Source: Pseudomonadales bacterium (GTDB lineage: Bacteria > Pseudomonadota > Gammaproteobacteria > Pseudomonadales > Natronospirillaceae). From it: a DNA stretch of 32,326 nucleotides. The position numbers were made by a program, and so were the translations under genes. Positions 12,909 to 24,385 of this stretch are shown here, piece after piece. Position 1 is the stretch's first letter. Every line of letters begins with the position of its first letter. The notes beneath the pieces were generated by a model. The model was not told the origin of the DNA, made no database searches, and saw nothing but the letters and a program-made list of their open reading frames with translations. The stretch is from positions 13,389 to 45,714 of the forward strand of contig JALJPK010000002.1 in the NCBI GenBank assembly GCA_022968985.1, in the 5' to 3' direction.

Positions 12909-13257
12909 GTAGGGTCGATATTTATATCGAAAAACATATTTGATATTGATATCAACCTTACGAGATCAGAAAAACATTTGATATTGATAATTGCTCGGCT
13001 TTGTTTCCTAAGTCGCCCTACCTATTACTTCCATGTAAATGTCCTGCATTATTTTAATAAACACCAACCCTTTAACGATGAATATCAACCTTACGTTTTT
13101 AGTTGTCAGGGCAAGCCTCTGACCTACAGATGTGGTGCTGCATTTGTAGGGTCGATATTTATATCGAAAAAAATTTGATATAAATATCAACCTTACGAGA
13201 TTAGTCTGAAGCATAATTCGATATTGAAAAATATTTGATATGAATATCAACCCTACG
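12909..13257 (+). repeat. REP-like repeat cluster A
   Basis: Holds five near-complete copies of an AT-rich REP-like unit: + copies at 12909-12930 and 13146-13167, and - copies at 12940-12962, 13175-13197 and 13235-13257. Fragments lie at 12978-12993 and 13076-13095. Each unit has a GTA(A/G)GG head and a T(C/T)GATAT-NN-ATATC(G/A)A hairpin. The first pair begins 10 bases after the glmM stop, so it may help end or stabilise that transcript. No gene is credible in this 375-base gap. Confidence 0.85.
13105..13127 (-). repeat. GC-richer REP hairpin of a second type
   Basis: On the minus strand a GTAG tetranucleotide (13127-13124) is followed by a hairpin with arms GTCAG-GGC and GCC-CTGAC, a two-base loop and one bulged base. 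This GTAG-plus-hairpin form is the classic layout of RAYT-mobilised REP elements. Just to its right, CTACAGATG (13124-13132) and CATTTGTAG (13141-13149) form an imperfect inverted repeat that joins this head to the next AT-type unit. Confidence 0.55.
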
Positions 13258-13274
13258 TTTTTTTGATTAGTTGC

Positions 13275-14330
13275 TTAGCTTTTATTAAACATGTCTCTGA
13301 TAAATAATTTTGGTTGAAAAATAAGTTTCATTATTTTTCGGCTGAATTTTTCAATTTTTGTACGCTGAATATTAGGTGGCTGATTAAAATAAGACTCACC
13401 CCCTAAATTTATTACCTGATCATTTAATGATAACTTCGATTCAGCTAAGCTTTGTTGCATTTTAGTTAGCAAATAATCCATATTGTTATTTTGATTGTTT
13501 TTATATTTTGAACCTAATCTTGTGCTGTGTGATAAATGCACGGTATAACAATGATTCGTTAAATTTTGTGCACTGTATTTAGAGAATAACATTCTAAACC
13601 CCTGTTGTTTTGAGGGGTTTTTACTGGCGTGATCGGTCAGATAGTCTTTTGGAATACCATAGATAGGATTATTGATCACTAAACGATGGATCAATTCTAA
13701 GTCCTCGCCTTTATGCCCTATAAATTTCTCATCAAAATTTCCTAATTTTAATAAATGTGCTTTTTGGCAAAGTAGAGTCGAAGTGGGTAATGCGATATGT
13801 TCGATACAGTTTTTGGCAGCTGAATTGACCTGATTAAAAATTGTTGAAAAAATAGATTGGTTTAAATCCGAATCTTGATTGATTGTTTTTTTCTGTTTGA
13901 GTATTAACTGGCTACTTTGTTTGGTGAGATATAAACAAGGGTACATACAAAAATGCTGTGGATTTGCTTTGATTTTTGTTAATTGAGTCTTAATGTCGTT
14001 AAATAATTGAGGACTACCTATTAAATCAATATCCCAAAATAATAAGTACTCACCTTTACTTGTTTTGATTCCGATATTTCTGGCGGTGCCAGGACTATAA
14101 GGACCTGTTGAAAAATCGGTGTTTATTATTTTGATATTCGACTGGTTCAGCTCACCCAATAAAGCGGTCGCTTTTTTAACGTACTTAGTTTCCCCTGAAA
14201 GTACAACAACATGCTCGGCTTGATTTAAATACCCATTATTATTAGTTAGACACAGCTGCAGACGATTTAAAATATATCGGCTATTTGAGTTTATGTGTAC
14301 TGGGTAAATCAAACTTAACGTTGATATCAT
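13275..14330 (-). CDS. GT2 family glycosyltransferase, capsule type
   Basis: A 351-residue GT-A enzyme without membrane segments. The nucleotide-sugar site is seen in SPGTARNIGIKTSKGEYLLFWDIDL, with the metal-binding D-x-D at D100 and D102 (this stretch is residues 79-103). The likely catalytic-base region is GHKGEDLELIHRL (E209, D210), followed by a basic tail rich in K and R. The layout fits the predicted capsule glycosyltransferases of COG4092, relatives of chondroitin-type polymerases. It points against the surrounding capsule genes and sits alone between REP clusters A and B, so it may be an inserted cassette. Donor sugar unknown. The SD is weak (AACAG). Confidence 0.72.
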   Translation of the reverse strand: MISTLSLIYPVHINSNSRYILNRLQLCLTNNNGYLNQAEHVVVLSGETKYVKKATALLGELNQSNIKIINTDFSTGPYSPGTARNIGIKTSKGEYLLFWDIDLIGSPQLFNDIKTQLTKIKANPQHFCMYPCLYLTKQSSQLILKQKKTINQDSDLNQSIFSTIFNQVNSAAKNCIEHIALPTSTLLCQKAHLLKLGNFDEKFIGHKGEDLELIHRLVINNPIYGIPKDYLTDHASKNPSKQQGFRMLFSKYSAQNLTNHCYTVHLSHSTRLGSKYKNNQNNNMDYLLTKMQQSLAESKLSLNDQVINLGGESYFNQPPNIQRTKIEKFSRKIMKLIFQPKLFIRDMFNKS

Positions 14331-14445
14331 CTGTTGATTTTTACTTTTATCAAAAAAACATTATAAACCGTTTGGTTGCTTTTGGATAATACATACATTG
14401 TGTTAGTACATACCAAGCTATGGTCTGGGTTTTGATGGTTGTTTT

Positions 14446-14640
14446 TTCGATATGAATATCGACCTTACGATTGGATAGATTGTGATTTTCGTTTTTCGTT
14501 ATAAATACCGACCCTACGATTGTTGATGATGTTTACGTAGGGTTGATATTTATATCAATGTTTTCTTCGATATGAATATCGACCTTACGATTGGATGGTT
14601 TTTGATTTTCGTTTTTCGATATCGGATTATGTCCTGACCC
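14446..14640 (+). repeat. REP-like repeat cluster B
   Basis: The 399-base gap between the glycosyltransferase and the protease holds - copies at 14446-14469 and 14566-14589, a + copy at 14536-14558 and a degenerate - copy at 14495-14518. A broken fragment with CGATATCGG and CCCTAC lies at ~14616-14643. The copies at 14536 and 14566 form an inward-facing pair. Nothing else is seen in this gap apart from the terminator at its right end. Confidence 0.82.
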
Positions 14641-14658
14641 TACTCTATAAATTTGACT

Positions 14659-14697
14659 CAAAAAAAAATGAGCCAACCTTTTTCAGATTGACTCATT
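14659..14697 (-). terminator. Rho-independent terminator of the metalloprotease gene
   Basis: Read on the minus strand, AATGAGTCAA (14697-14688) pairs with TTGGCTCATT (14676-14667) through ten base pairs with one G-U wobble, loop of 11 bases, followed by a run of T (A-run at 14660-14668 on the + strand). A second, fully symmetrical 12-bp inverted repeat (14708-14719 with 14724-14735) overlaps the stop codon and may add to termination or mRNA stability. Confidence 0.8.
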
Positions 14698-14729
14698 TAA
14701 TTTCATTAATTAATAATTGTTAGCAATTA

Positions 14730-15899
14730 TTAATTACCGTTACGACCTTCTTTAAGACCATAACGAATCCAATGCTGCAATGCAGCTAGATAGTTATTGT
14801 CGCCAAATGCATTTTTTAAATCATTATATCGATCTAAATAATTTGAAACATCAAATGAACTAGTAGATCGACGACCTTCTTTTAAGCCATATTGCGCCCA
14901 GTGTTTATGTGCAGCTAAATAATTAGTTGCACCAAATACTCGTTTTAAATCTGAATGACTACTTAGATAAAATTTAACATCAAAAGACTTAGAACTTTTA
15001 CGGCCTTCTTTAATTCCGTACACTTTAAAGTGGTTTACTGCTGCGGCATAGTTTGTACCAAATACACGTGTTAAATCACTGTATAAGCTAATGTACTCTT
15101 TAACATTAAAACTTGGAGAACTGACACGGCCTTCTTTTTTACCATGTTTATCCCAATGTTCTTTAGCGGCTTTAAAGTTAGACTTACCAAACGCTCTAGC
15201 TATATCATGGTTATATAAAAGGTAATAATCTGCAGAAAACGCAGGTAGATCATCATAACTAGAAAGAATTAACTTCTCACTGTCATAATATTTTTGCACC
15301 ATCACAATATCAGTTTCGCTTAGTTCGCCAGCTGCATTCCATTGTGGATTACAATAATTCATTACTGAATCTAAATCCCATTTACCAATATACACATCAC
15401 CATCAGTGCCTTGCGGCGAATCAGTACAGCTATCGGGAGTATCGGTACGATTTTGTTCATGTGCAAAACCTAGTGCGTGTCCAAATTCATGTATCGCAAT
15501 AACCTCTGAGCAATATTGCACGTCTGATTGACATGAAGGCGACCAATTATTGTAAGTGAAATTTAATACCATTCCGTTAGATAAACCATTTAAGTTTTTA
15601 CCTAACCCTTTTACATGTGGACCTACGTCACTTACTTGTATTCTAACGCCAGCACTGCCACTTGAACACTGCCCCCAGCCTGTAAATTCTGCTCTTGAAT
15701 TGTCTGACCAAGTATCAGAAACTGCATTTTGAATCCAAGATCGTTGGTTAGCTGAAGATTCAGTAAACGACTCCCAACAAACTGGAATTACATTGCTGTC
15801 ACATACTGAGGACGATAAGACATTACCTTCATCTTGCGCAATGGCAACCGAAGAAACACTTATAACAACTGGTAAAAATAACCCTTTAAAAAATCTCAT
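14730..15899 (-). CDS. Secreted metzincin zinc protease with four C-terminal repeats
   Basis: A 389-residue exported protein. The signal peptide is residues 1-21 (basic start, hydrophobic core, AIA before QDEG). The protease domain has the extended zinc site HEFGHALGFAHEQ, with ligands H137, H141 and H147 and catalytic E138, and a Met-turn SVMNYC (M180, Y182); this places it with astacin/matrixin-type metzincins. Several paired cysteines fit an extracytoplasmic fold. Residues ~217-389 are four repeats of ~40-45 residues with the pattern F-(D/N/S)-V-x(2)-Y-L, S-D-L, F-G, H-W, YG-(L/I/K)-K-EGR. Such repeats are seen in surface and adhesive proteins. A clear SD (AGGAA, six bases before ATG) supports the start. 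The role near the capsule genes is unknown. Confidence 0.83.
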   Translation of the reverse strand: MRFFKGLFLPVVISVSSVAIAQDEGNVLSSSVCDSNVIPVCWESFTESSANQRSWIQNAVSDTWSDNSRAEFTGWGQCSSGSAGVRIQVSDVGPHVKGLGKNLNGLSNGMVLNFTYNNWSPSCQSDVQYCSEVIAIHEFGHALGFAHEQNRTDTPDSCTDSPQGTDGDVYIGKWDLDSVMNYCNPQWNAAGELSETDIVMVQKYYDSEKLILSSYDDLPAFSADYYLLYNHDIARAFGKSNFKAAKEHWDKHGKKEGRVSSPSFNVKEYISLYSDLTRVFGTNYAAAVNHFKVYGIKEGRKSSKSFDVKFYLSSHSDLKRVFGATNYLAAHKHWAQYGLKEGRRSTSSFDVSNYLDRYNDLKNAFGDNNYLAALQHWIRYGLKEGRNGN

Positions 15900-16306
15900 A
15901 TATATTCCTATTTATATGTTTTTCATAATTAATATTTGATAAAATTATCAAACATTTTAATACAAGCACTTCATTATTTGAAGACACTCATAAATTAATA
16001 CTAGCATGTGATATTATAATTACACAATTAATACAAAAATTTATTTCAGCGAAAACCTAATAAAACTCATTTCTATTAACAAAAAACTCCCAGATCATTA
16101 CACAAAAAACAGCAACCAACTGGCATGGCTCCAACATTGCTTCACCAAATGTCATTAATTGAACAAAACCGGAGTTAATTATATTAATAAGCTAATAAAA
16201 TCGACTCGTTTGTAGATATTTAAAGGTTTCGATTTCCCAGTCATAGTGTTTAACTGCATTTACTTGTATTATCTGCTTTCTATTTTTTGTTTGATTACCC
16301 TCCTTC
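15900..16306. other. Divergent intergenic region between the metalloprotease and kpsC
   Basis: This 407-base gap holds no credible gene. Near the protease start is an 18-base palindrome, TTTGATAA-AA-TTATCAAA (15935-15952), a possible operator. On the + strand, TTGAAC (16159-16164) and TATTAA (16082+100, i.e. 16182-16187) with a 17-base spacer look like a sigma-70 promoter for kpsC. No REP unit is present here, in contrast to the neighbouring gaps. Confidence 0.35.
16159..16187 (+). promoter_or_regulatory. Candidate sigma-70 promoter for kpsC-kpsS
   Basis: The -35 box TTGAAC and the -10 box TATTAA are separated by exactly 17 bases. It would leave a leader of about 110-115 bases before the kpsC ATG. 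In AT-rich DNA such matches are frequent, so this is a weak call. Confidence 0.3.
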
Positions 16307-18592
16307 ATGACCTTTTCCAAATCTTTTTACACAAGTAGCCGCGGTATTGTAAAACAGACTGATTTATCTGTTTTTTTAGATGCAGATATTCACTCTTTAA
16401 GTGATTTTAAAAGCGCTAATAATTCTACAAAAGAGCAAGCGGTTGTTGGTTGGGGTAATAAAGCTAATACTCAAAAATCTGTGGAGTTTGCACAAAACAA
16501 TAACCTGCCATTTTATCGTTTAGAAGATGCGTTTTTGGGGTATTTTGGTCATCCTAGTAAACGTAATATTCGAGTAGGATTAATTAAGGACAGTCAGGGA
16601 ATTTATTATGATGCGTTTAATCATTGCGATTTAGAGGATTTTATTCAATTACCTTTATCTGCCGATGAATCATCACAAAGTATTAAAGATTTGGCTCTGT
16701 TTAAAGAGCTGCGCTTAAGTAAGTATAACGACCCTACTATTACCTCAACTGCAACTACCTCAACTGCAACTTCTGCTGCAATCCCAGCTACAACATCTAG
16801 CGATGTCGACCAAACTGACGATTATGTACTTTTGATTGATCAAACTTTTGCTGATCAATCGATTACATCGGGTGGCGCTAATCAAGATTGTTTTTTGTGG
16901 ATGCTGCTTGATGCTTTGTATCTTTACCCTAACTCTAAAATTATTATTCGTACTCACCCTGATGTTAAAGCAGGTAAAAAAACGGGTTGTTTTAAAGCCG
17001 ATTGGCTTAAATTAAGTGATCGAATTGAGTTAAATGATAAACCTATTAATGCAATTGATTTAATTGAACCAGCTTTGGCTGTGTTTTGTGTGACCTCACA
17101 AATGGGTTTTGAGTCGATTCTACAAAACAAAAAGGTATTCACTTATAGTACTGCTTTTTATACGGGTTTGGGTTTAACTCAAGATCGTATTCACTTTTTG
17201 AGTCATTTATCAGCTGCCGCTCAAATTCAATATTTTGATGATATTGGTTTTAACTACAGTACGAACAACAGTCTTATTAACATCAGTCAGTTTGAAGGTC
17301 TGTTTGAGTGCCATCAAACCAAACGTAATATTCGTTTATCTGATTATTGGTTGTCGTTAGATTTAGTCGCTAAAAAAACGGCGTTATTTTATGCCGCGAT
17401 GATCCGTTACCCCACTTATGTTCACCCCGACACTCAAACTATTTGTTCGTTAAATGAACTACTTAATTGGTTTAAAGTGCAACAACATTTTAAGCTTGAG
17501 ACTCAACACCCTATTGTACTGTTTGGTTTTAGCTTGTGGAAAAAATGGTTTATTCCCGCTTATATTCCGTTTAAACATCGACATAATTTAATATTTGTAT
17601 CGACTCACAATGCGTTACAAAAACAACTTAAAACCGGCTGTGATGTTGTAATTACTTGGGGTGCGGTTCGTGCCGAGAGCGTATCTAAGCTTTTAGAGCA
17701 TCAAACTTTATATTGTGTAGAGGATGGGTTTATTCGTTCTCAAGGCTTGGGAGTAGATTTAAAACGTCCGTCTTCATTGTGTTTTGACGATTTAAGTATT
17801 TATTACAACTCGTTAAAACCCAGTCGCTTAAATTCAATTTTACAAAATTCTAAACCTTTAATCGATACAAACAAACAAGTCCGTTATTTGATTAATGCGA
17901 TTAATTCTAATGGTTTAAGTAAATACAATGTGGGTCAACCCCTTGACTGTGAAATTGAATCGGCTATTAATCGAGCTAAGGGTGAGTCTAAAGAAATTAT
18001 TTTGATTCCTGGGCAAGTTATGGGAGACGCCAGTTTAAAATATGGCACCGGTGTTATTGACTCTAATATCAAACTAATCAAACAGGTTAAACAAGATTAC
18101 CCGGATGCGTTTATTATTTATAAACCTCATCCCGATGTGTTTGCTAGTAAAAAAGGCGATTTTACTGAGCTCAGTGTTGCTTATAAAAATTGTTCGTTGG
18201 TGTTAAACCAACAAGATATCGCGCTGTTATATCCACATATTGGTCGTTTATGTACCATGACGTCGTTATCTGGTTTTGAGGCGTTGTTGCGTGGTATTAA
18301 AGTGGATTGTTATGGTAAACCATTTTATAGCGGCTGGGGATTAACCCTTGATCATCATACTATAAGCGATCGGACTAATACTCTGTCGATAGAGCAATTA
18401 GTGGCCGCCACTTTGATTACTTATCCTCTGTATGTTAACTGGCGTACTTGGACATTTATGCAGCCTGAGGTTTTAGTTCACCAAATATCTGGTGCACATG
18501 TTAAAATTAAACCGACTGGTTTTTTTGCAAAAATGCACAAAAAAATGGGTTATTTAATTGAGTTATATCAAATGAGTCGTAAAACTTATTGA
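16307..18592 (+). CDS. kpsC: Capsule beta-Kdo transferase KpsC
   Basis: Two-domain enzyme that alternately adds beta-Kdo residues to the phosphatidylglycerol anchor of ABC-exported capsules, at the inner membrane face. The first domain (~1-370) shows VGWGNKANTQ, FYRLEDAFLGYFG and TSQMGFESILQNKKVFTY. The second (~395-750) shows TWGAVRAESV, CVEDGFIRSQGLG, IPGQVMGDASLKYG, YKPHPDVFASKKG and SLSGFEALLRGIKVDCYG. The 761 residues exceed the ~675 of E. coli KpsC, partly because of a Thr/Ser/Ala-rich insert at ~144-165 made by a 15-bp tandem repeat. No SD is obvious before the ATG. kpsS follows 68 bases later. Confidence 0.92.
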   Translation: MTFSKSFYTSSRGIVKQTDLSVFLDADIHSLSDFKSANNSTKEQAVVGWGNKANTQKSVEFAQNNNLPFYRLEDAFLGYFGHPSKRNIRVGLIKDSQGIYYDAFNHCDLEDFIQLPLSADESSQSIKDLALFKELRLSKYNDPTITSTATTSTATSAAIPATTSSDVDQTDDYVLLIDQTFADQSITSGGANQDCFLWMLLDALYLYPNSKIIIRTHPDVKAGKKTGCFKADWLKLSDRIELNDKPINAIDLIEPALAVFCVTSQMGFESILQNKKVFTYSTAFYTGLGLTQDRIHFLSHLSAAAQIQYFDDIGFNYSTNNSLINISQFEGLFECHQTKRNIRLSDYWLSLDLVAKKTALFYAAMIRYPTYVHPDTQTICSLNELLNWFKVQQHFKLETQHPIVLFGFSLWKKWFIPAYIPFKHRHNLIFVSTHNALQKQLKTGCDVVITWGAVRAESVSKLLEHQTLYCVEDGFIRSQGLGVDLKRPSSLCFDDLSIYYNSLKPSRLNSILQNSKPLIDTNKQVRYLINAINSNGLSKYNVGQPLDCEIESAINRAKGESKEIILIPGQVMGDASLKYGTGVIDSNIKLIKQVKQDYPDAFIIYKPHPDVFASKKGDFTELSVAYKNCSLVLNQQDIALLYPHIGRLCTMTSLSGFEALLRGIKVDCYGKPFYSGWGLTLDHHTISDRTNTLSIEQLVAATLITYPLYVNWRTWTFMQPEVLVHQISGAHVKIKPTGFFAKMHKKMGYLIELYQMSRKTY
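16742..16771 (+). repeat. 15-bp tandem repeat inside kpsC
   Basis: The unit ACCTCAACTGCAACT occurs twice in a row (16742-16756, 16757-16771) and codes for a T-S-T-A-T type linker. Its length is a multiple of three, so changes in copy number would keep the frame. Confidence 0.85.
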
Positions 18593-18660
18593 TTAAATAG
18601 AAGGGAATTTACTTTAATCGGTTTTTTATTTTAATCGTTTTAATAAGAAGTATTCAGCCA

Positions 18661-19845
18661 TTGTCTAATATCCTGTTATTACAGGGTCCGTTGGGACCCT
18701 TTTTTAAACAATTACAATCTGAACTGCAACGTTCGTTGTTGTTAAACGTTGACGTGCATCGTATTGTATTTAATGCTGGTGATCAGTTTTTTGCTGGTAA
18801 ACATCATGTTCATGCCTTTACCCAAGCACAAGATCAATGGGCACAATGGTTAAGCGATTTTGTAAAAACTTATTCTATTACGCATATATTGGTTTATGGT
18901 GATTGTCGTTTTTACCATAAAGCTGCAGCTGAAATTTGTGAAAATTTAGGTCTAAAGTTTTGGGCCTTTGAAGAAGGTTATTTACGCCCAAATCATATCA
19001 CCTGCGAACGTTTTGGCGCCAACGCCAACTCTAAAACCCATTATGAAGAAGTGCGCAATTGGCAAATTAAAGACGATTTAGATAACTTTGATGTGCGCAG
19101 TAGTTTTTATTACACTTTTTATTACGCGGCCGTGTTTTATTGGGCAATGTTATTGGGTAAGTCTAAATTTAAACTTTATATTCATCATCGTGATTCCAGC
19201 CCTATGCGCGAAGGTGCCGCTAAAATACGTTCGTTTTTGCGTCATTATTTGTATAAATTTAAACAAAAATCGCAGTTGAAATTTATCAAACAACATCCTT
19301 TCTTTTTGGTGCCATTACAGGTATTTAATGATTCACAATTAACTCACCATAGCCCGTTTGAGTCGATGCAGGCGTTTATTGAAACAACTGTTGAGTCTTT
19401 TGCTGTTCACTCTCAATCAGAAGACGTATTGGTTATTAAACACCATCCCGCTGATCGTGGTGAATGTAATTATCAAACGCTGATTGATCAATTAACACTT
19501 AAGTATGATTTGGTTAATCGATTAATTTATGTACACGACTTACACCTGCCTAGTTTACTTAAGCAGTGCAAAGGTGTGATTAGCATTAATAGCACTACGG
19601 TTTTGGGAGCGTTTCACCATAGCGCCCCGGTTAAGATTTTAGGCGAAGCGTTTTACGATATTAAGGGTTTGGCTTGTGAAGGTTCGCTTGATGATTTTTG
19701 GACAAAACCTACTGCTGTAAATCATGAATTTTATCTGCAGTTACGCGATTTTTTAAGACATACGAACCAATTTAACGGCAGTTTTTATAGTGATAAAGAT
19801 TTAGCCATTAAAAACTTCATCCACTTTTTTAAAGATAAAGTTTAA
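18661..19845 (+). CDS. kpsS: Capsule Kdo transferase KpsS
   Basis: Adds the first Kdo to the phosphatidylglycerol anchor; KpsC then extends it. The 394 residues match the family. Motifs: LLLQGPLGPFF at the N-terminus, YGDCRFYHKAAAEI, FEEGYLRPNHITCERFG, VIKHHPADRGE and INSTTVLGAFHHSAPV. The start is TTG at 18661: the conserved LLLQGP block begins five residues later, and no ATG or GTG lies in frame in the 60 bases upstream. The SD is weak. Its 3' end faces that of the PagL-like gene, 23 bases away. Confidence 0.92.
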   Translation: MSNILLLQGPLGPFFKQLQSELQRSLLLNVDVHRIVFNAGDQFFAGKHHVHAFTQAQDQWAQWLSDFVKTYSITHILVYGDCRFYHKAAAEICENLGLKFWAFEEGYLRPNHITCERFGANANSKTHYEEVRNWQIKDDLDNFDVRSSFYYTFYYAAVFYWAMLLGKSKFKLYIHHRDSSPMREGAAKIRSFLRHYLYKFKQKSQLKFIKQHPFFLVPLQVFNDSQLTHHSPFESMQAFIETTVESFAVHSQSEDVLVIKHHPADRGECNYQTLIDQLTLKYDLVNRLIYVHDLHLPSLLKQCKGVISINSTTVLGAFHHSAPVKILGEAFYDIKGLACEGSLDDFWTKPTAVNHEFYLQLRDFLRHTNQFNGSFYSDKDLAIKNFIHFFKDKV

Positions 19846-19868
19846 CTTTGTTTAATCGTTAGGTTTAA

Positions 19869-20447
19869 TCAAAAACTTAAAACAAGTGCCACTGTATGGG
19901 TTTCTAAGGTTGGATTATAATCGTATAAATCGGCATTCGACATATGTTGCCAGCTATAAGATAAGTTAATATTTTGCACAAGAGCGAACGCCACACCAAA
20001 ACGATATGAAAAATGCAACGGCCCACCATAACGTTTACGCCCAAAATCGTGTCTTGATAATAAATTAATCTTAGTTGCGCCTTCGAAACTGAGTCGGTTA
20101 TTTGTATTTAAAATCGGCACTTTATAAGCTAGACCCGCACTCCAAATCACACCATGTTTGTCATCTACTATTAACTTCGACACACCTAACTCGGCAAGAG
20201 GCATCAATAACGTTTTTGGGACTCGTGGTAAATCAATCTGCCAGAACATTTCCATTGTTGATATTGGCAATATTTGTTGCTCAGAAGGCAAACCGTAACG
20301 TACCCCAAATTTGTTCACCATTTTAACCACGGTACCGTTACTTTTTGGATAAACAGAATCGACGTTAACCAAATTGTCAGGTGATAATTCAATTGCATAC
20401 ACTGGATTGAATATTAAAAAACTTAACAACACATATAAGGTTTTCAT
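19869..20447 (-). CDS. Lipid A 3-O-deacylase, PagL family
   Basis: A 192-residue outer-membrane beta-barrel protein. The signal peptide is residues 1-18 (cleavage after PVYA). The C-terminal half has alternating aromatic/hydrophobic strands ending in F. The active site is in QHMSNADLYDYNP: H168, S170 and E182 keep the same spacing as H126, S128 and E140 of Pseudomonas PagL. It removes the 3-position acyl chain of lipid A. SD GGAG lies eight bases before ATG. Between ATTACTTA (20488-20495) and TAAGTAAT (20513-20520) a hairpin can form upstream of the start. The gene is convergent with kpsS. Overall similarity is confined to the C-terminal half. Confidence 0.8.
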   Translation of the reverse strand: MKTLYVLLSFLIFNPVYAIELSPDNLVNVDSVYPKSNGTVVKMVNKFGVRYGLPSEQQILPISTMEMFWQIDLPRVPKTLLMPLAELGVSKLIVDDKHGVIWSAGLAYKVPILNTNNRLSFEGATKINLLSRHDFGRKRYGGPLHFSYRFGVAFALVQNINLSYSWQHMSNADLYDYNPTLETHTVALVLSF

Positions 20448-20703
20448 TTTATTGGCTCCAAGAATTCATAACATGTCACTTATAATAATTACTTAAGGGG
20501 TGAACCTTTATATAAGTAATAGATTAGAAGTTATTTTTCCTGTTACCGTCTATATCAACGAAATTTAACGAAAAACACCTACTTTTTACCGAAAAAAATA
20601 TAAAAGGACATTTGATTACAGGGCTCGTAACAGTGAGTTTTTTTATGTGTGGAATTGTTTGAAAATTAGAATTTAACGGTGAGATTTGGTCATTTTTTGA
20701 ATA
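20448..20703. other. Intergenic region upstream of the PagL-like gene
   Basis: It holds the hairpin-forming inverted repeat at 20488-20520 (8-bp arms plus an inner AAGG/CCTT pair), which lies 41-73 bases upstream of the gene start and could be an operator or leader structure. The rest, up to the start of repeat cluster C, shows nothing recognisable. Confidence 0.3.
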
Positions 20704-20890
20704 CGTAGGGTTTTTATTTACGTAAGGTTGATATTTATATCAAATGGTCATGATGGCTGTTTTTCGATATGAATATCGACCTTACGTTTGGATTTTAATT
20801 GTCGTTTTTTCGATATGAATATCGACCTTACTTTAGATGATGATGTGTTACGTAGGGTTGAGATTTGCGTAAGGTTGATATTTATATCAA
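20704..20890 (+). repeat. REP-like repeat cluster C
   Basis: Downstream of the RAYT gene: + copies at 20721-20743 and 20868-20890, - copies at 20763-20786 and 20809-20831, and head-only fragments at 20704 and 20851. The copies at 20721 and 20763 form an inward-facing pair. The last + copy ends 47 bases from the RAYT stop. Confidence 0.85.
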
Positions 20891-20937
20891 TGGATTATGA
20901 GGTTGTTTTGTTATTCGAGATTCCAGATTATCCTTAC

Positions 20938-21384
20938 CTACAAATAATCCGAATTCCAATATGGGTATTCTTTTATATTTTGAACTAATTTTTTCCTTAG
21001 TGGATTCGCTACTATATATCGTGCGATTTCTTTTATGTCTTCATCTTTTCTGATTGTATGTTCGTAGTATTGTTTTTGCCAAAAAGCACCTTGCCTTTCT
21101 AACTGTTTGTTTAACGCGTATGCGGTTCGTCCTTTTAAATCACTCATCACTCGCTGTAATTTTTTATCTTGTATCTGGACTAATCCGTGAAAATGATCCG
21201 GCATTAATACCCATGTTATCCATTTACAATGCATCTGGGTTTCGTTTATTTTTATCTGTTGGCAAAAAATCGATGCTGCTTTATGTGCTTCGAATTGTGG
21301 CTCTCTGTTTTTTGTGTTGAATGTGATGAAGTATATTTGATTTGTTATTGATTCTCGTTTCTTTTGCAAATCGTCCCATGGCAT
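20938..21384 (-). CDS. REP-associated tyrosine transposase (RAYT), Y1/HUH superfamily
   Basis: A 148-residue single-strand DNA transposase. The HUH metal site is MPDHFHGLVQI (H64, H66), the catalytic tyrosine is Y123 in RYIVANP, and the linker region FWQKQYYEHTIR is typical of RAYT proteins. These enzymes cut and move REP elements by recognising a GTAG-like tetranucleotide at the foot of a hairpin. Here the gene sits between repeat clusters C and D, whose units carry such a head, so they are the likely substrate. SD AAGGA precedes the ATG by six to seven bases. All core residues are intact, so it may be active. It is on the short side for the family. Confidence 0.9.
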   Translation of the reverse strand: MPWDDLQKKRESITNQIYFITFNTKNREPQFEAHKAASIFCQQIKINETQMHCKWITWVLMPDHFHGLVQIQDKKLQRVMSDLKGRTAYALNKQLERQGAFWQKQYYEHTIRKDEDIKEIARYIVANPLRKKLVQNIKEYPYWNSDYL

Positions 21385-21451
21385 ATTTATTCCTTGATAG
21401 CCGTTAGTTTTTATAGCTTAGTTTAGTTTTCATTCGTAAGGATGTTATTTG

Positions 21452-21845
21452 CGTAGGGTTGATATTTATATCAATGGATCGTGAGATTTGTTTTTTCGAT
21501 ATGAATATCGACCTTACGTTGGAGGGTGTGGGTTTGTGATGTTTGTTTTTCGATATAAATATCGACCTTACGTTAGGTAGGTTGTGATGGTCATTTTTCG
21601 ATATAAATATCGACCTTACGTTGGGTAGATTGTGATGGTCATTTTTCGATATGAATATCGACCTTACGTTGGGTAGATTGTGATGGTCATTTTTCGATAT
21701 GAATATCGACACACGATTGTTGATGATGTTTACAAGGGCTGATATTTATATCAATGGATTTTGAGATTTGTTCTTTCGATATGAATAACGACCTTACGCT
21801 GTGGGTTTGTGATGTTTGTTTTTCGATATGAATATCGCCCCTACG
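21452..21845 (+). repeat. REP-like repeat cluster D
   Basis: Fills most of the 487 bases upstream of the RAYT gene. + copies: 21452-21474 and a head-damaged one at 21731-21754. - copies: 21495-21518, 21549-21572, 21597-21620, 21645-21668, 21693-21715 (damaged tail), 21775-21798 (one internal change) and 21822-21845. Pairs 21452/21495 and 21731/21775 face inward. No promoter or gene is clear in this gap. Confidence 0.88.
21549..21716 (+). repeat. 48-bp tandem array of REP-like units
   Basis: Four - strand units begin at 21549, 21597, 21645 and 21693, exactly 48 bases apart, each a 24-base repeat plus a nearly identical spacer (TTGGGTAGATTGTGATGGTC). The spacers are homologous, so the array arose by tandem duplication, not by separate insertions. 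Confidence 0.9.
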
Positions 21846-21871
21846 CTACGGTGATATCAATATTATTTGTT

Positions 21872-23296
21872 TTATTTTTCATCCAAAAAAACATGCCATT
21901 TTGGGCGACTGCAACTTTTTAAGAATGTCTCTTGGTTTGATTCTTCTGCTTTTTGTTTGCTCTCATTACCATCTAAAAACAACACCATTTTAAGTTGCTG
22001 TTGTTTTGAATTCTGTTCATCAAACACCATTTTGGCTATTGCATTGGCGGGCATGATTAATCGCCCTGCGATATTATTTAAGGGAAATTGAATGCCTTTT
22101 TGATTGTTACTTGGCTGATAACTTTTATATATTAATTCACTGCAGACTAATGCGTCGTCCTTTTGGAAATTAAAATTATAATCATAAGGCAGGCCGACGT
22201 AATAAAACGCATTAAACAGCGCTTTGGCTTTTTCTAACTTGGAAAGATTTGGCCTTAGTACTACTACACTGTCACAACAAAGTGATTGCTGTAAGGATGT
22301 AAATACTACACCTGGGGCGATTGATTCGATGACGTTTTTTTCATAGCCATTATCTTGAGTTAATGTGTTTTCAAATTTTATGGGATAATTATTTTTTAAT
22401 AAATCTGCATATTTTCCGCTTATAACTCCTTTTGTTTTGACCCACTTGATCACTTCTTCATCTTCAAAAAACTCATCACGTCGATTTGTATTACCCATAA
22501 ACAAAGCTGCGTGGGACCAAAACCCCGGTATACCTATATTGGTTGCCTGCCACTCTCTGCGCTGTAATAAGATATCACCTGGCTGTATTTTGCTTAATAT
22601 TTGACCCACTTGTTCTGGTATAATCAATGAATGTCCATTTCGCCAAACCTTGATATTACCAATTGTATTAGCCACGCCTTTTTGAATAGGAAACCAGGCT
22701 TTGAATGTGCCTGTTTTTAGAATATCTACGGCGTTTTTAAGTGTCAGCTTAATTGTATTGTTTTTTGCATAATCATAAATAATCGTTTTATCTTCTTTAT
22801 ACATTTTTTCTAATGATTCATCTAAATACTCTGAATTGCTTTTGTATATCAGAATTAATGCATGAAACCTTGTGGCCATTTTTACATTTAGGAAATGGAA
22901 TTTAAAACGTTTATATGCTGACTCTCCTAAGCCTAAATTTAAATTCTTTTGCTCAAGTAATTTAACTAAACTGGTTTCTTGTTCAATGATTTCAATAAAT
23001 TGTAATGCAAATCGATAAGCACTAAGAAATGAAATAAGCTGTAAATAGAATGTATTTCTTTTTTCTGTTGAGTTTAATATGTAATTACCTGATGTTTCAT
23101 TCACTATCGATTCAATAACAAAAATCGTTTCTGCAAAACATTGCCATAATTGCAGGGTTTGAATTTTTTGGTCTTTGCTGAGTAATTGTGTTTTTACTTG
23201 TTTGTTATTATTGAATTCTGTCGAATTAAGCTCTAATAACGCGATGATTCTTTTGGATTCATTTCTTTGAATATTAAGCTTATTTAGTGTCTTCAA
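21872..23296 (-). CDS. YiiX-like permuted papain-fold cysteine peptidase/amidase with helical N-terminal domain
   Basis: A 474-residue protein without a signal peptide. Residues 1-200 are helical and unrecognised. Residues ~235-440 carry the permuted NlpC/P60 (YiiX/YebB, LRAT-like) features: QPGDILLQRREW, the catalytic histidine H262 in FWSHAALFMG, and the nucleophile C385 in ALVCSELIYKSY. The family includes amidases and lipid-modifying thiol enzymes; the substrate here is unknown. The start is TTG, supported by a GGAG SD nine bases upstream; the next Met in frame is residue 140. The 3' end abuts repeat cluster D. A lipase- or acyltransferase-type role is as possible as a peptidase. Confidence 0.72.
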   Translation of the reverse strand: MKTLNKLNIQRNESKRIIALLELNSTEFNNNKQVKTQLLSKDQKIQTLQLWQCFAETIFVIESIVNETSGNYILNSTEKRNTFYLQLISFLSAYRFALQFIEIIEQETSLVKLLEQKNLNLGLGESAYKRFKFHFLNVKMATRFHALILIYKSNSEYLDESLEKMYKEDKTIIYDYAKNNTIKLTLKNAVDILKTGTFKAWFPIQKGVANTIGNIKVWRNGHSLIIPEQVGQILSKIQPGDILLQRREWQATNIGIPGFWSHAALFMGNTNRRDEFFEDEEVIKWVKTKGVISGKYADLLKNNYPIKFENTLTQDNGYEKNVIESIAPGVVFTSLQQSLCCDSVVVLRPNLSKLEKAKALFNAFYYVGLPYDYNFNFQKDDALVCSELIYKSYQPSNNQKGIQFPLNNIAGRLIMPANAIAKMVFDEQNSKQQQLKMVLFLDGNESKQKAEESNQETFLKSCSRPKWHVFLDEK

Positions 23297-23305
23297 TTTT
23301 TTCAG

Positions 23306-23309
23306 CTCC
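23306..23309 (-). promoter_or_regulatory. Ribosome binding site supporting a TTG start
   Basis: GGAG on the minus strand lies nine bases before the TTG at 23296-23294, and no ATG is near, so it decides the start of the YiiX-like gene. Confidence 0.6.
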
Positions 23310-23404
23310 GTTTAATACTGCCCTTTGCGCCATCTTTTAACTGTTATTATTTAAATTTGAGTATTTGGATTATATTTTATTTGGTTCTGTTGTTTTTAGT
23401 TTTT

Positions 23405-23427
23405 TTGATATGAATATCAACCCTACA
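23405..23427 (-). repeat. Single REP-like unit
   Basis: A lone - copy with the T-A version of the stem (TTGATAT-GA-ATATCAA form) and a slightly damaged head (CCCTACA), between the YiiX-like gene and the phzF remnant. It lies next to the duplication at 23475. Confidence 0.75.
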
Positions 23428-23474
23428 TTTTTGGATTTTCTTTATATCTTTGAGATTAGTCTTAGCATTTTTAT

Positions 23475-23599
23475 TTATTGGTTAATAAAGATTGTGCCAC
23501 ACATATAATCCACCGCTTTACCGGTTAACAGTACTTTGTCGTTTATTAATTCACAGCCTATTAACCCTGTGCTTTTTGATATTCCTGATGGCTTTTTTA
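23475..23599 (-). pseudogene. Duplicated 3' remnant of a phzF-like gene
   Basis: The minus strand here reads, in frame to a stop at 23475-23477, SKSTGLIGCELINDKVLL, TGKAVDYMCGTIFINQ. This matches the C-terminus of the intact gene next to it (SKRTGLVGCELIGDKVLL, TGKAVDYMFGSIFIES). By eye about 66 of 79 bases agree over 23502-23580 versus 23627-23705, an offset of 125 bases. It has no start or upstream domain, so it is a remnant of a tandem duplicate or of a replaced allele. Confidence 0.85.
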
Positions 23600-24385
23600 T
23601 TAGCTTTCTATAAAAATACTACCAAACATATAATCCACTGCTTTTCCGGTTAACAAGACTTTGTCACCTATTAATTCACAACCAACTAATCCTGTTCTTT
23701 TGGATAGTTGTTTGGCTGTTAACTTATTTTTATTTAATTGTTTGGCCCAAAATGGAGTTAATTCACAATGCGCAGAACCTGTTACAGGGTCTTCATCCAC
23801 ACCATACTTTGGAAAGAAACAACGACTCACAAAATCAACCGAATCGCCAAGGGCGGTAACAATGACACCTCTTAAGTCTAATGTTTTCAATTGGTCAAAA
23901 TCAGGTTTTATATTTTGCACATCTTGTTGTGATTTAAGCACAACTACATAATCGAACGCTGCAAGTACGCTGGCGCTTTCAACACATAGGGCTTCAAGTA
24001 ATGGTTCAGGGGCTTTTATTTCTAATGGCATCGTGGCAGGAAAACTAAGTTGGTAATCAGTATTCGTTTGGCTAACTTCTAATAAACCACTTTTAGTTGT
24101 AAATGAGATCACTTGTTTTGAATAGTTTAAATGCTTAAATAACACATGAGCTGCCGCTAACGTAGCATGACCACATAAGTCAATTTCAGCTTTTGGTGTA
24201 AACCATCTTAAGGCTATGCTTTGACCTTCGTCTACAAAAAATGCGGTTTCAGACAGGTTATTTTCTTCAGCTATTTTTTGCATTAGATCATCGTCGATCC
24301 ATTCGTTTAAAGGGCATACCGCCGCTGGGTTACCCTCAAATACTTTATCTGTAAATGCATCAACTTGATAAATTTTTAATTCCAT
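23600..24385 (-). CDS. PhzF family isomerase-like protein
   Basis: A 261-residue cytoplasmic protein of the PhzF/YddE diaminopimelate-epimerase fold. The N-terminus has the family block YQVDAFTDKVFEGNPAAVCPL and the proposed catalytic glutamate E46 in ENNLSETAFFV. The second half has DLCGHATLAAAHVLF and the PVTGSAHCELTPFWA loop. PhzF itself isomerises a dihydro-anthranilate in phenazine synthesis, but most family members outside phenazine clusters have unknown substrates, and no other phz gene is here. A 3' remnant of a second copy lies directly downstream. Confidence 0.88.
   Translation of the reverse strand: MELKIYQVDAFTDKVFEGNPAAVCPLNEWIDDDLMQKIAEENNLSETAFFVDEGQSIALRWFTPKAEIDLCGHATLAAAHVLFKHLNYSKQVISFTTKSGLLEVSQTNTDYQLSFPATMPLEIKAPEPLLEALCVESASVLAAFDYVVVLKSQQDVQNIKPDFDQLKTLDLRGVIVTALGDSVDFVSRCFFPKYGVDEDPVTGSAHCELTPFWAKQLNKNKLTAKQLSKRTGLVGCELIGDKVLLTGKAVDYMFGSIFIES

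Follow-up and report, generated by a model that had tools for sequence, protein, structure and literature searches.

Repetitive extragenic palindromic sequences (REPs) have been described as a GT(A/G)G tag followed by a palindrome rich in guanine and cytosine (GC) (Nunvar et al. 2010, PMC2817692), and the unit that replicates has been described as an inverted REP doublet with a variable spacer, the REPIN (Bertels and Rainey 2011; PMC8049555). In the group-3 REP-Mb of Marinomonas, a GTAG tag is followed by 2 nt, a stem of 5 bp and the 4-nt loop TTTA, in which T12, T13 and A15 are required and position 14 is free (Corneloup et al. 2021, PMC8266576). For GTAG REPs, Di Nocera et al. (2013, PMC3733652) describe complementary stem subfamilies and heterodimers, the preference for which they leave without obvious explanation. 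Here we analyse a stretch of 32,326 nucleotides from a Pseudomonadales bacterium of the family Natronospirillaceae (assembly GCA_022968985.1, contig JALJPK010000002.1, positions 13,389 to 45,714 of the forward strand), hereafter the window, in which short AT-rich repeats lie on both sides of a gene for a REP-associated tyrosine transposase (RAYT).

Judged by sequence, the repeats and the gene make up a GTAG-type REP/REPIN system that is nearest to the Marinomonas kind. Our reading, to which we assign a probability of about 0.85, is that the system is a REPtron, composed of a group-3 (subclass 2.5) RAYT and the REPs that it probably processes, with the REPIN as its mobile unit.

Results

A repeat family around a RAYT gene

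The window contains 23 copies with no more than three mismatches to GTARGGTNGATATNNATATCNA, which together span positions 12909-23426. An earlier reading made from the letters and their open reading frames (ORFs) only (the sequence-only reading) had estimated about 23 near-complete copies, and its six example coordinates were correct or one base off. The element is 22 nt long and is laid out as GTA(A/G)GG, T(C/T)GATAT, TN and ATATC(G/A)A. We call a copy C-type or T-type according to whether its second stem pair, the sixth counted from the loop, is C:G or T:A. All 23 copies are intergenic, in that they lie between the main ORFs, and they form five groups, two of which flank the RAYT gene; the short ORFs 13008-13250 and 21404-21712, which overlap some copies, look spurious. 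The copies and the gene are as follows, in positions of the window.

12909..12961: REPIN; C-type (plus strand, 12909-12930, GTAG) and T-type (minus strand, 12940-12961, GTAA, loop CA)
13073..13094, minus strand: decayed T-type copy with a broken right arm; the sole incoherent copy in the window
13146..13196: REPIN; C-type (plus strand, 13146) and T-type (minus strand, 13175)
13235..13256, minus strand: T-type REP, GTAG head
14447..14468, minus strand: C-type REP, GTAA head
14496..14517, minus strand: C-type REP with two stem mismatches
14537..14588: compact 52-bp REPIN with an 8-nt spacer; T-type (plus strand, 14537) and C-type (minus strand, 14567)
20722..20785: REPIN beside the RAYT gene, heads outward; T-type (plus strand, 20722-20743) and C-type (minus strand, 20764-20785)
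20810..20831, minus strand: C-type REP, GTAA head
20869..20890, plus strand: T-type REP, GTAA head
20938..21384, minus strand: RAYT (TnpA-REP) gene, 148 aa, intact, identified by profile and structure matches and by motifs
21453..21517: REPIN on the other side of the RAYT gene; T-type (plus strand, 21453-21474, GTAG) and C-type (minus strand, 21496-21517, GTAA)
21550..21667, minus strand: three tandem C-type REPs (21550, 21598, 21646) with a 48-bp period
21694: additional copy without a head, beyond the tandem C-type array
21733..21797: REPIN; T-type (plus strand, 21733, degraded head CAAG) and C-type (minus strand, 21776)
21823..21844, minus strand: C-type REP, GTAG head, one mismatch
23405..23426, minus strand: T-type REP, GTAG head, the outermost copy

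The second stem pair is coherent, that is C:G or T:A, in 22 of the 23 window copies, the exception being the decayed copy at 13073 (T..T). The genome searched comprises 4.80 Mb in 273 contigs, and at two mismatches or fewer it yields 118 matches to the pattern compared with 0 for a reversed control pattern. When the second pair was left as N...N and no mismatch was allowed, 80 copies were found genome-wide, of which 36 are C:G, 44 are T:A and none is mixed. A looser set of 116 copies at three mismatches or fewer (56 C:G, 57 T:A, 2 T..T and 1 C..A) was taken from 212,081 bases, namely the stretches around listed places, which hold 108 copies at two mismatches or fewer and so leave at least 10 of the 118 outside. 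The observation of the sequence-only reading that this pair is C with G or T with A in almost every copy therefore holds well beyond the window. Other stem positions vary little in the 116-copy set, and part of this constancy of the arms is ascertainment, the remainder of the stem having been fixed in the search pattern. In the loop, which that pattern gave as NN, 110 of 113 typed copies have T as the first base, whereas the second varies (T in 71, C in 32, G in 8 and A in 2). A conserved first loop T next to a variable base matches the Mb requirement for T12, T13 and A15 with position 14 free.

The head proposed by the sequence-only reading, GTA(A/G)GG, describes most of the copies but not all of them, as among the 116 copies GTAG occurs 57 times, GTAA 49 times, GTGG once and other heads nine times, and the GT(A/G)G definition fits only part of the family. 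The RAYT contig carries 27 of the 80 exact copies, with a length-based expectation of 0.76. GC content is 34.3% in the window and 34.5% across the 212,081 bases around copies. Intergenic placement, high copy number and a paired stem, which are traits of GTAG-type REPs, are all present, and foot plus stem (GTAG, GG and seven stem bases) amount to 13 nt, which fits the 10-13 nt range described for REPs flanking subclass 2.5 RAYTs.

In a minor subset of repeats in the source genome (G000 in our numbering of genomes), on contigs C21, C26, C33, C50, C195, C199, C225 and C257, TCGATAT...ATATCGA is preceded by GTAGGT, GTAAGT or GTAGGC and often followed by a tail, AAGG or GAGTAAC. This is perhaps an older or separate C-type subfamily.

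The gene at 20938-21384 has, on the evidence of its sequence, the character of an intact RAYT of group 3/subclass 2.5 type. Its product matches Y1_Tnp of Pfam (4.2e-15) and REP_Tyr_transpos (REP-associated tyrosine transposase) of NCBIfam (5.7e-41, 139.8 bits with a cut-off of 80), and its sole match to a solved structure at E 0.001 is TnpA-REP 4er8 (4.5e-7), a chain that we take to be from E. coli. Given REPs on both sides, these matches bear out the view that a REP-like family is centred on an intact RAYT. The HuH motif reads DHFH (HFH being residues 64-66), WQ occupies residues 102-103 and the catalytic-type Tyr123 lies within YIVANP; all three fit the DH[LF]H, WQ and YI[VI]ANP motifs described for subclass 2.5, the members of which are about 151 aa long (Quentin et al. 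2018, PMC6006769). Tyr is present at the catalytic position in 51 of 51 aligned rows. Glu108 aligns with residue 100 (E100) of the 4er8 chain, and all 49 other aligned homologues have Asp at this position, Glu being found only in the window RAYT and in E. coli. The passage of Quentin et al. that treats residues contacting the GTAG guide states that E100 is 'fully replaced by D in subclass 2.5 and 2.7'; this is an observation rather than a class criterion, and the window RAYT departs from it. Residues 7, 9, 71 and 131 of the window RAYT also deviate from at least 45 of the 49 homologues.

A tree of 50 RAYTs and the E. coli protein places the window RAYT among D-bearing homologues, in a clade with the RAYTs of genomes G010, G264 and G283 and of Marinomonas pollencensis (98/89). 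Its position within that clade is weak (98/39), its branch is long (0.95), and no named group-3 reference protein is in the tree. Identity to the window RAYT is 51% in G264 and 49% each in G283, G207, G010 (same family) and M. pollencensis. The genome's own second RAYT joins next (100/93). This second RAYT (L069, C243:10268-10699) has an open frame and is 42% identical to that of the window. In addition, a RAYT split over two frames by a frameshift (L070 and L071, C225:11462-11886; parts 42% and 51% identical) is adjoined by two near-palindromes GTAGGTCGTAGC-TT-GCTACGTC, which suggests that the genome probably once held other REPtrons.

The two stem forms are the two ends of one element

There are 29 head-outward pairs within 60 bp among the 116 copies, on 15 contigs, and 27 of them, on 14 contigs, consist of one C-type and one T-type copy. 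Free 50:50 pairing would give this by chance at 8e-7, which is a descriptive figure rather than a test since the copies are related. Heads-inside neighbours are unlike in 12 of the 13 cases with both types known (3 more include an untyped copy). Direct neighbours are all of the same type (6 CC and 4 TT), as expected from tandem duplication. The two stem forms, C:G and T:A, are therefore the opposite ends of a single inverted-pair element, a heterodimeric REPIN.

It follows that the covariation seen within the genome can be one old double change. The sequence-only reading had noted that both arms change together and had taken this as evidence for selection on a folded strand. The first part is correct, but the inference does not follow from copies within one genome, and we dropped independent compensation within the genome as the main reading when the two forms proved to be ends of one unit. 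More generally, when covariation is tallied across the copies of a mobile repeat, a single event may be counted repeatedly. A founder effect would account for the pattern directly: an ancestral REPIN had one C:G end and one T:A end, all copies inherited them, and no selection on the fold within the genome is needed. In its favour, C:G and T:A are the only pairs seen among the exact copies, 27 of 29 head-outward pairs have one of them at each end of the unit, and the other stem positions hardly vary. Against it, copies that vary in head base 4, in the second loop base and in their flanks keep both arms, although this too is partly ascertainment. We regard such a founder effect as quite possible, if somewhat short of an even bet, and a further point against it comes from the relatives considered below.

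We also calculated hairpin energies with DNA parameters at 37 C. A single matched hairpin has -3.4 (C-type) or -2.4 (T-type) kcal/mol, and a mixed one -0.2 or -0.5 kcal/mol. The hairpin formed by a whole REPIN has -13 to -15 kcal/mol for a heterodimer and -20 to -22 kcal/mol for a homodimer. In these calculations the end asymmetry is predicted to weaken fusion into one long hairpin without abolishing it.

In relatives the stem is replaced and the asymmetry kept

The exact repeat is absent from all 21 other genomes of the family, which is in line with the sequence-only reading that ties the repeat to this RAYT but is a weak test, given that those relatives whose RAYT is related differ in their stems in any case. 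What these relatives share is the REP frame, which consists of GTAGG, a T:A foot pair, a seven-pair stem and a T-TN-A loop. The RAYTs of G010, a clade-mate of the window RAYT, and of the Marinomonas type lie among REPs of this same scaffold. Specifically, the inner stem that reads GATAT here reads AGCCT in G283, AG(C/T)CT in G264, GCCCT in G207, and GGGCT and GG(C/T)CT in G010, and in a comparison of 12 major stems, which were picked by hand, both arms have changed, with Watson-Crick pairing, at pairs 2-6 of 7. Note that the search patterns for the relatives fixed the T:A foot pair, a C:G pair and the T:A loop pair, such that constancy there is by construction.

The counts that follow use 109 of 150 rows listed, out of 309 places in five relatives (35 of the 187 matches in G010 were listed and none of the 7 in G011); the remaining rows were excluded as other families with irregular stems (12 from G264, 3 from G283 and 26 from G207), and at the corresponding pair these 41 have 19 T..G and 22 T..A. 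At the sixth pair from the loop, C:G and T:A number 18 and 30 in G283 (plus one T..G), 3 and 11 in G264 (one of the 11, G264:C8:545219, is from another repeat family, so that the family proper has 10), 18 and 17 in G010, and 1 and 10 in G207. Head-outward neighbours have unlike ends in 15 of 15 cases among the listed matches of G010, in 8 of 9 in G283 and in 1 of 1 in G264, and G207 has no head-outward neighbours in the rows used. The more distant G324, with a RAYT 39% identical, has GTCGAAT and GCCGAAT stems, three copies each among 8 matches, that differ at the sixth pair, with no close head-outward pair among these 8. Nothing was concluded from G040 (6 matches) or G371 (1 match).

That the inner stem has been replaced on both arms, with the C/T difference retained at the sixth pair, supports selection on the hairpin, and is better evidence for it than the copies of a single genome provide. 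This also bears on the founder effect, since the asymmetry at the same pair outlasts inner-stem replacement in G283, G264 and G010, and descent alone would not keep the arms paired.

A further possibility, which we hold tentatively, is that the C/T end asymmetry is itself selected because it hinders fusion of the two ends into a long hairpin or cruciform and keeps each RAYT-ready hairpin perfect. One changed pair costs the long hairpin approximately 6-9 kcal/mol at 37 C and leaves the single hairpins intact, and the sixth-pair difference is kept in the source genome, G283, G264 and G010, with both stems also occurring in G324. Di Nocera et al. (PMC3733652) likewise suggest that heterodimers may escape enzymatic clearance. 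However, the same authors also describe families with homodimers, the two ends are identical at several group-3 loci, and the long hairpin is still preferred energetically. Nor is the rule universal, as loci L142 and L132 differ at other pairs and G324 has no close head-outward pair.

Other GTAG-headed families with irregular stems (TTTCTCT/AGTAAGA and TTTGCCT/AGGCGAA), several in close arrays, were observed on G264 C11, on G283 C25 and on C6, C8 and C21 of G207. These possibly belong to other RAYTs of those genomes.

Departures in the stem, the tag and the enzyme

The stem has a GC fraction of 0.24, the lowest of the 40 loci scored, which are the window and the 39 of 44 given homologue loci that have a scorable family (window copies being filtered slightly differently, for a stem ending GATAT). 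The sequence-only reading had suggested that the short AT stem may be an unusual substrate type. However, stem GC tracks local GC (r 0.56), and the fit predicts 0.42 at the GC content of the window with a residual standard deviation of 0.13. At 1.3 residual standard deviations under the fit, stem GC was rejected as an anomaly beyond host composition, and the low value is partly that of an AT-rich host.

The GTAA tag is far less frequent in the five relatives, with 309 GTAG matches vs 3 GTAA matches, one of them REP-like (G010:C22:4219), in a GTAA search whose control counts (5 in total) exceed its 3 matches. In the source genome the tag is linked to the base that precedes it: this is C in 46 of 49 GTAA copies, whereas the 57 GTAG copies have C in 28 cases and T in 24. 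Two copies read TGTAA. With the RAYT contig excluded and like flanks collapsed, a preceding C is found in 27 of 29 GTAA copies vs 20 of 42 GTAG copies (p 8e-5). This link could be the order of mutations or a real five-base tag.

A more far-reaching account holds that RAYT and tag changed together. According to this account the Asp-to-Glu change at the tag-contacting Glu108 and the GTAG-to-GTAA change would be one specificity shift that redirects cutting from CT/CA to TT/TA, and the C/T end asymmetry would be a selected device and not a relic. In the guide model for TnpA-Mb the tag bases pair with the cleavage dinucleotide, such that GTAA would redirect cutting to TT/TA, dinucleotides that would be plentiful in an AT-rich genome (34.5% GC in the stretches analysed). 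If true, this would be a natural retargeting of a domesticated transposase. We consider it unlikely. Outside contig C112, CT/CA near GTAG and TT/TA near GTAA showed no separation of the kind expected in flanks of 10 and 20 nt, so that the flanks lend retargeting no support. Also counting against a link between Glu108 and GTAA are the four other odd residues of the window RAYT, the occurrence of GTAA with a D-bearing RAYT at locus L133, and the E. coli protein, which has Glu with GTAG. The link is a hypothesis drawn from one case, and drift is a fair alternative given the long RAYT branch.

Two stricter versions were dropped outright. Glu108 is not sufficient for GTAA, again because E. coli TnpA-REP combines Glu with GTAG, and GTAA is not unique to the source genome, since L133 (G696) also has it. 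At L133 the RAYT contains an in-frame TAG, and the stem GCAAGCT follows GTAA in at least two copies and GTAG in one on the strand analysed; the locus also has three GTAG copies of a second stem, GCCATCT. An apparent GTAA in L126 is the back strand of a GTAG copy.

Other features of the window

Two features were observed near the repeats. A 114-nt direct duplication, 77% alike, occupies 23468-23706; the minus-strand gene at 23600-24385 seems to have its 3' end repeated just past its stop codon. The ORF at 14730-15899 is secreted metalloprotease-like, with an HEXXH-type motif identified by eye and three or four imperfect C-terminal repeats of approximately 43 codons each.

Discussion

We envisage that the REPtron works as follows. 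The mobile unit would be the REPIN, two inverted REPs with heads outward. Each REP, once single-stranded, would fold into a hairpin of 6-7 bp with a T-(T N)-A loop and the GTAG or GTAA tag 5' of it. If the RAYT behaves like the purified TnpA-Mb of Marinomonas, it would depend on the loop T, and the tag would select a nearby cleavage dinucleotide. Cutting and rejoining would proceed via Tyr123, and new copies would settle mostly near the RAYT gene. With matched but unlike pairs at the sixth position each short hairpin would be kept, whereas in a hairpin of the whole REPIN two positions (T.G and A.C) would depart from Watson-Crick pairing. What we infer here is that the RAYT cleaves and copies the repeats, and what the asymmetry does; the repeat anatomy, the coherence of the second pair, the heterodimer rule, the intact gene and the stem replacement across species are seen in the sequences.

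Several observations weigh against this scheme. The other RAYTs of the genome, namely the C243 copy (42% identical) and the frameshifted C225 gene, could act on these repeats, and heterodimery could be pure inheritance. It is also not absolute, given two homodimers (T/T at C195:28906 and C/C at C199:26257), and at homologue loci 13 of 59 head-outward pairs are identical over the six inner pairs. Mixed pairs occur as well, T..G being present in one copy of G283 and in the single GTAA match of G010 that is REP-like. The long hairpin of a heterodimer is still favoured over two short ones at 37 C (-12.6 vs -5.6 kcal/mol). Finally, nearly half of the copies with a GTA(G/A) start (49 of 106) carry GTAA, which departs from the GT(A/G)G definition.

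A role of the repeats as RNA, in which hairpins at gene ends would terminate transcription or shield mRNA and the RAYT would be incidental, is very improbable. Every window copy is intergenic, as REPs generally are, but this role does not predict clustering round the RAYT, and the head GTA(A/G)GG, which is single-stranded and lies beyond the hairpin, is conserved (these bases being part of the search pattern). The first base 3' of the stem on the REP strand is A, not T, in 51 of 56 C-type copies, which is not terminator-shaped; a terminator was rejected because its T run would be on the wrong side.

For a REPtron of this kind there are two points of wider interest. The recognition work reported in PMC8266576 rests on three purified RAYT systems, and this genome supplies a natural variant that departs in two places, tag base 4 and residue 108, which may be matched; the many copies of both tag forms in one genome make the guide model testable with one enzyme. 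In addition, the C/T end asymmetry persists although the inner stem differs from genus to genus, which makes the question raised by Di Nocera et al., why the ends are unlike, directly testable.

We close with how the system compares with those described. The likeness to REPtron Mb of Marinomonas sp. MWYL1 (TnpA-Mb and REP-Mb) is drawn from its published description, with the sequence comparison made to the M. pollencensis RAYT. Both systems have a group-3 RAYT, a short perfect stem set off from a GTAG tag, a T-T-N-A loop in which the first loop T is kept and the next base is free, and REPs concentrated near the gene. Unlike Mb, the present system has the stem core GATAT/ATATC, the GTAA tag in nearly half of its copies and Glu108 in place of Asp, and unlike the relatives examined, in which a single G separates the tag from the T:A foot pair, it has two.

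The GTAG families of Di Nocera et al. (PMC3733652) are, on their description, similar in having a GTAG tag, stems that are mostly 6-9 bp long and short loops, many of them fitting TY; they too include subfamilies with alternative complementary stem residues, dimers with heads outward and, in some cases, heterodimers. Compensation and asymmetry are therefore not new in kind. Tag degeneracy there affects positions 2 and 3, whereas here it affects position 4, and the main text of that paper, as distinct from its figures, does not contain 'GTAA', 'AT-rich' or 'Marinomonas'. Among the titles and abstract openings returned by literature searches, which did not extend to figures, supplements and subscription papers, none describes an AT-stem or GTAA-headed REP family. 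As in published REPINs, an inverted head-outward REP pair is the repeated unit (29 pairs among the 116 copies); unlike those described, the doublets here combine a C:G-type and a T:A-type REP in 27 of 29 cases. In common with E. coli TnpA-REP and its y and z REPs (group 2; 4er8), the system has an HuH-Y1 enzyme, a tag plus hairpin, unlike REP pairs and Glu at the E100 equivalent, but its stems are short, perfect and without a bulge, and its protein has 148 aa vs 165 in the solved chain. A stem GC of 0.24 likewise sets it apart from the GC-rich palindromes of Nunvar et al. (PMC2817692). The kind of repeat is thus a known one, and an AT-rich stem, an altered GTAA tag and one odd enzyme residue make this system a useful variant of it.

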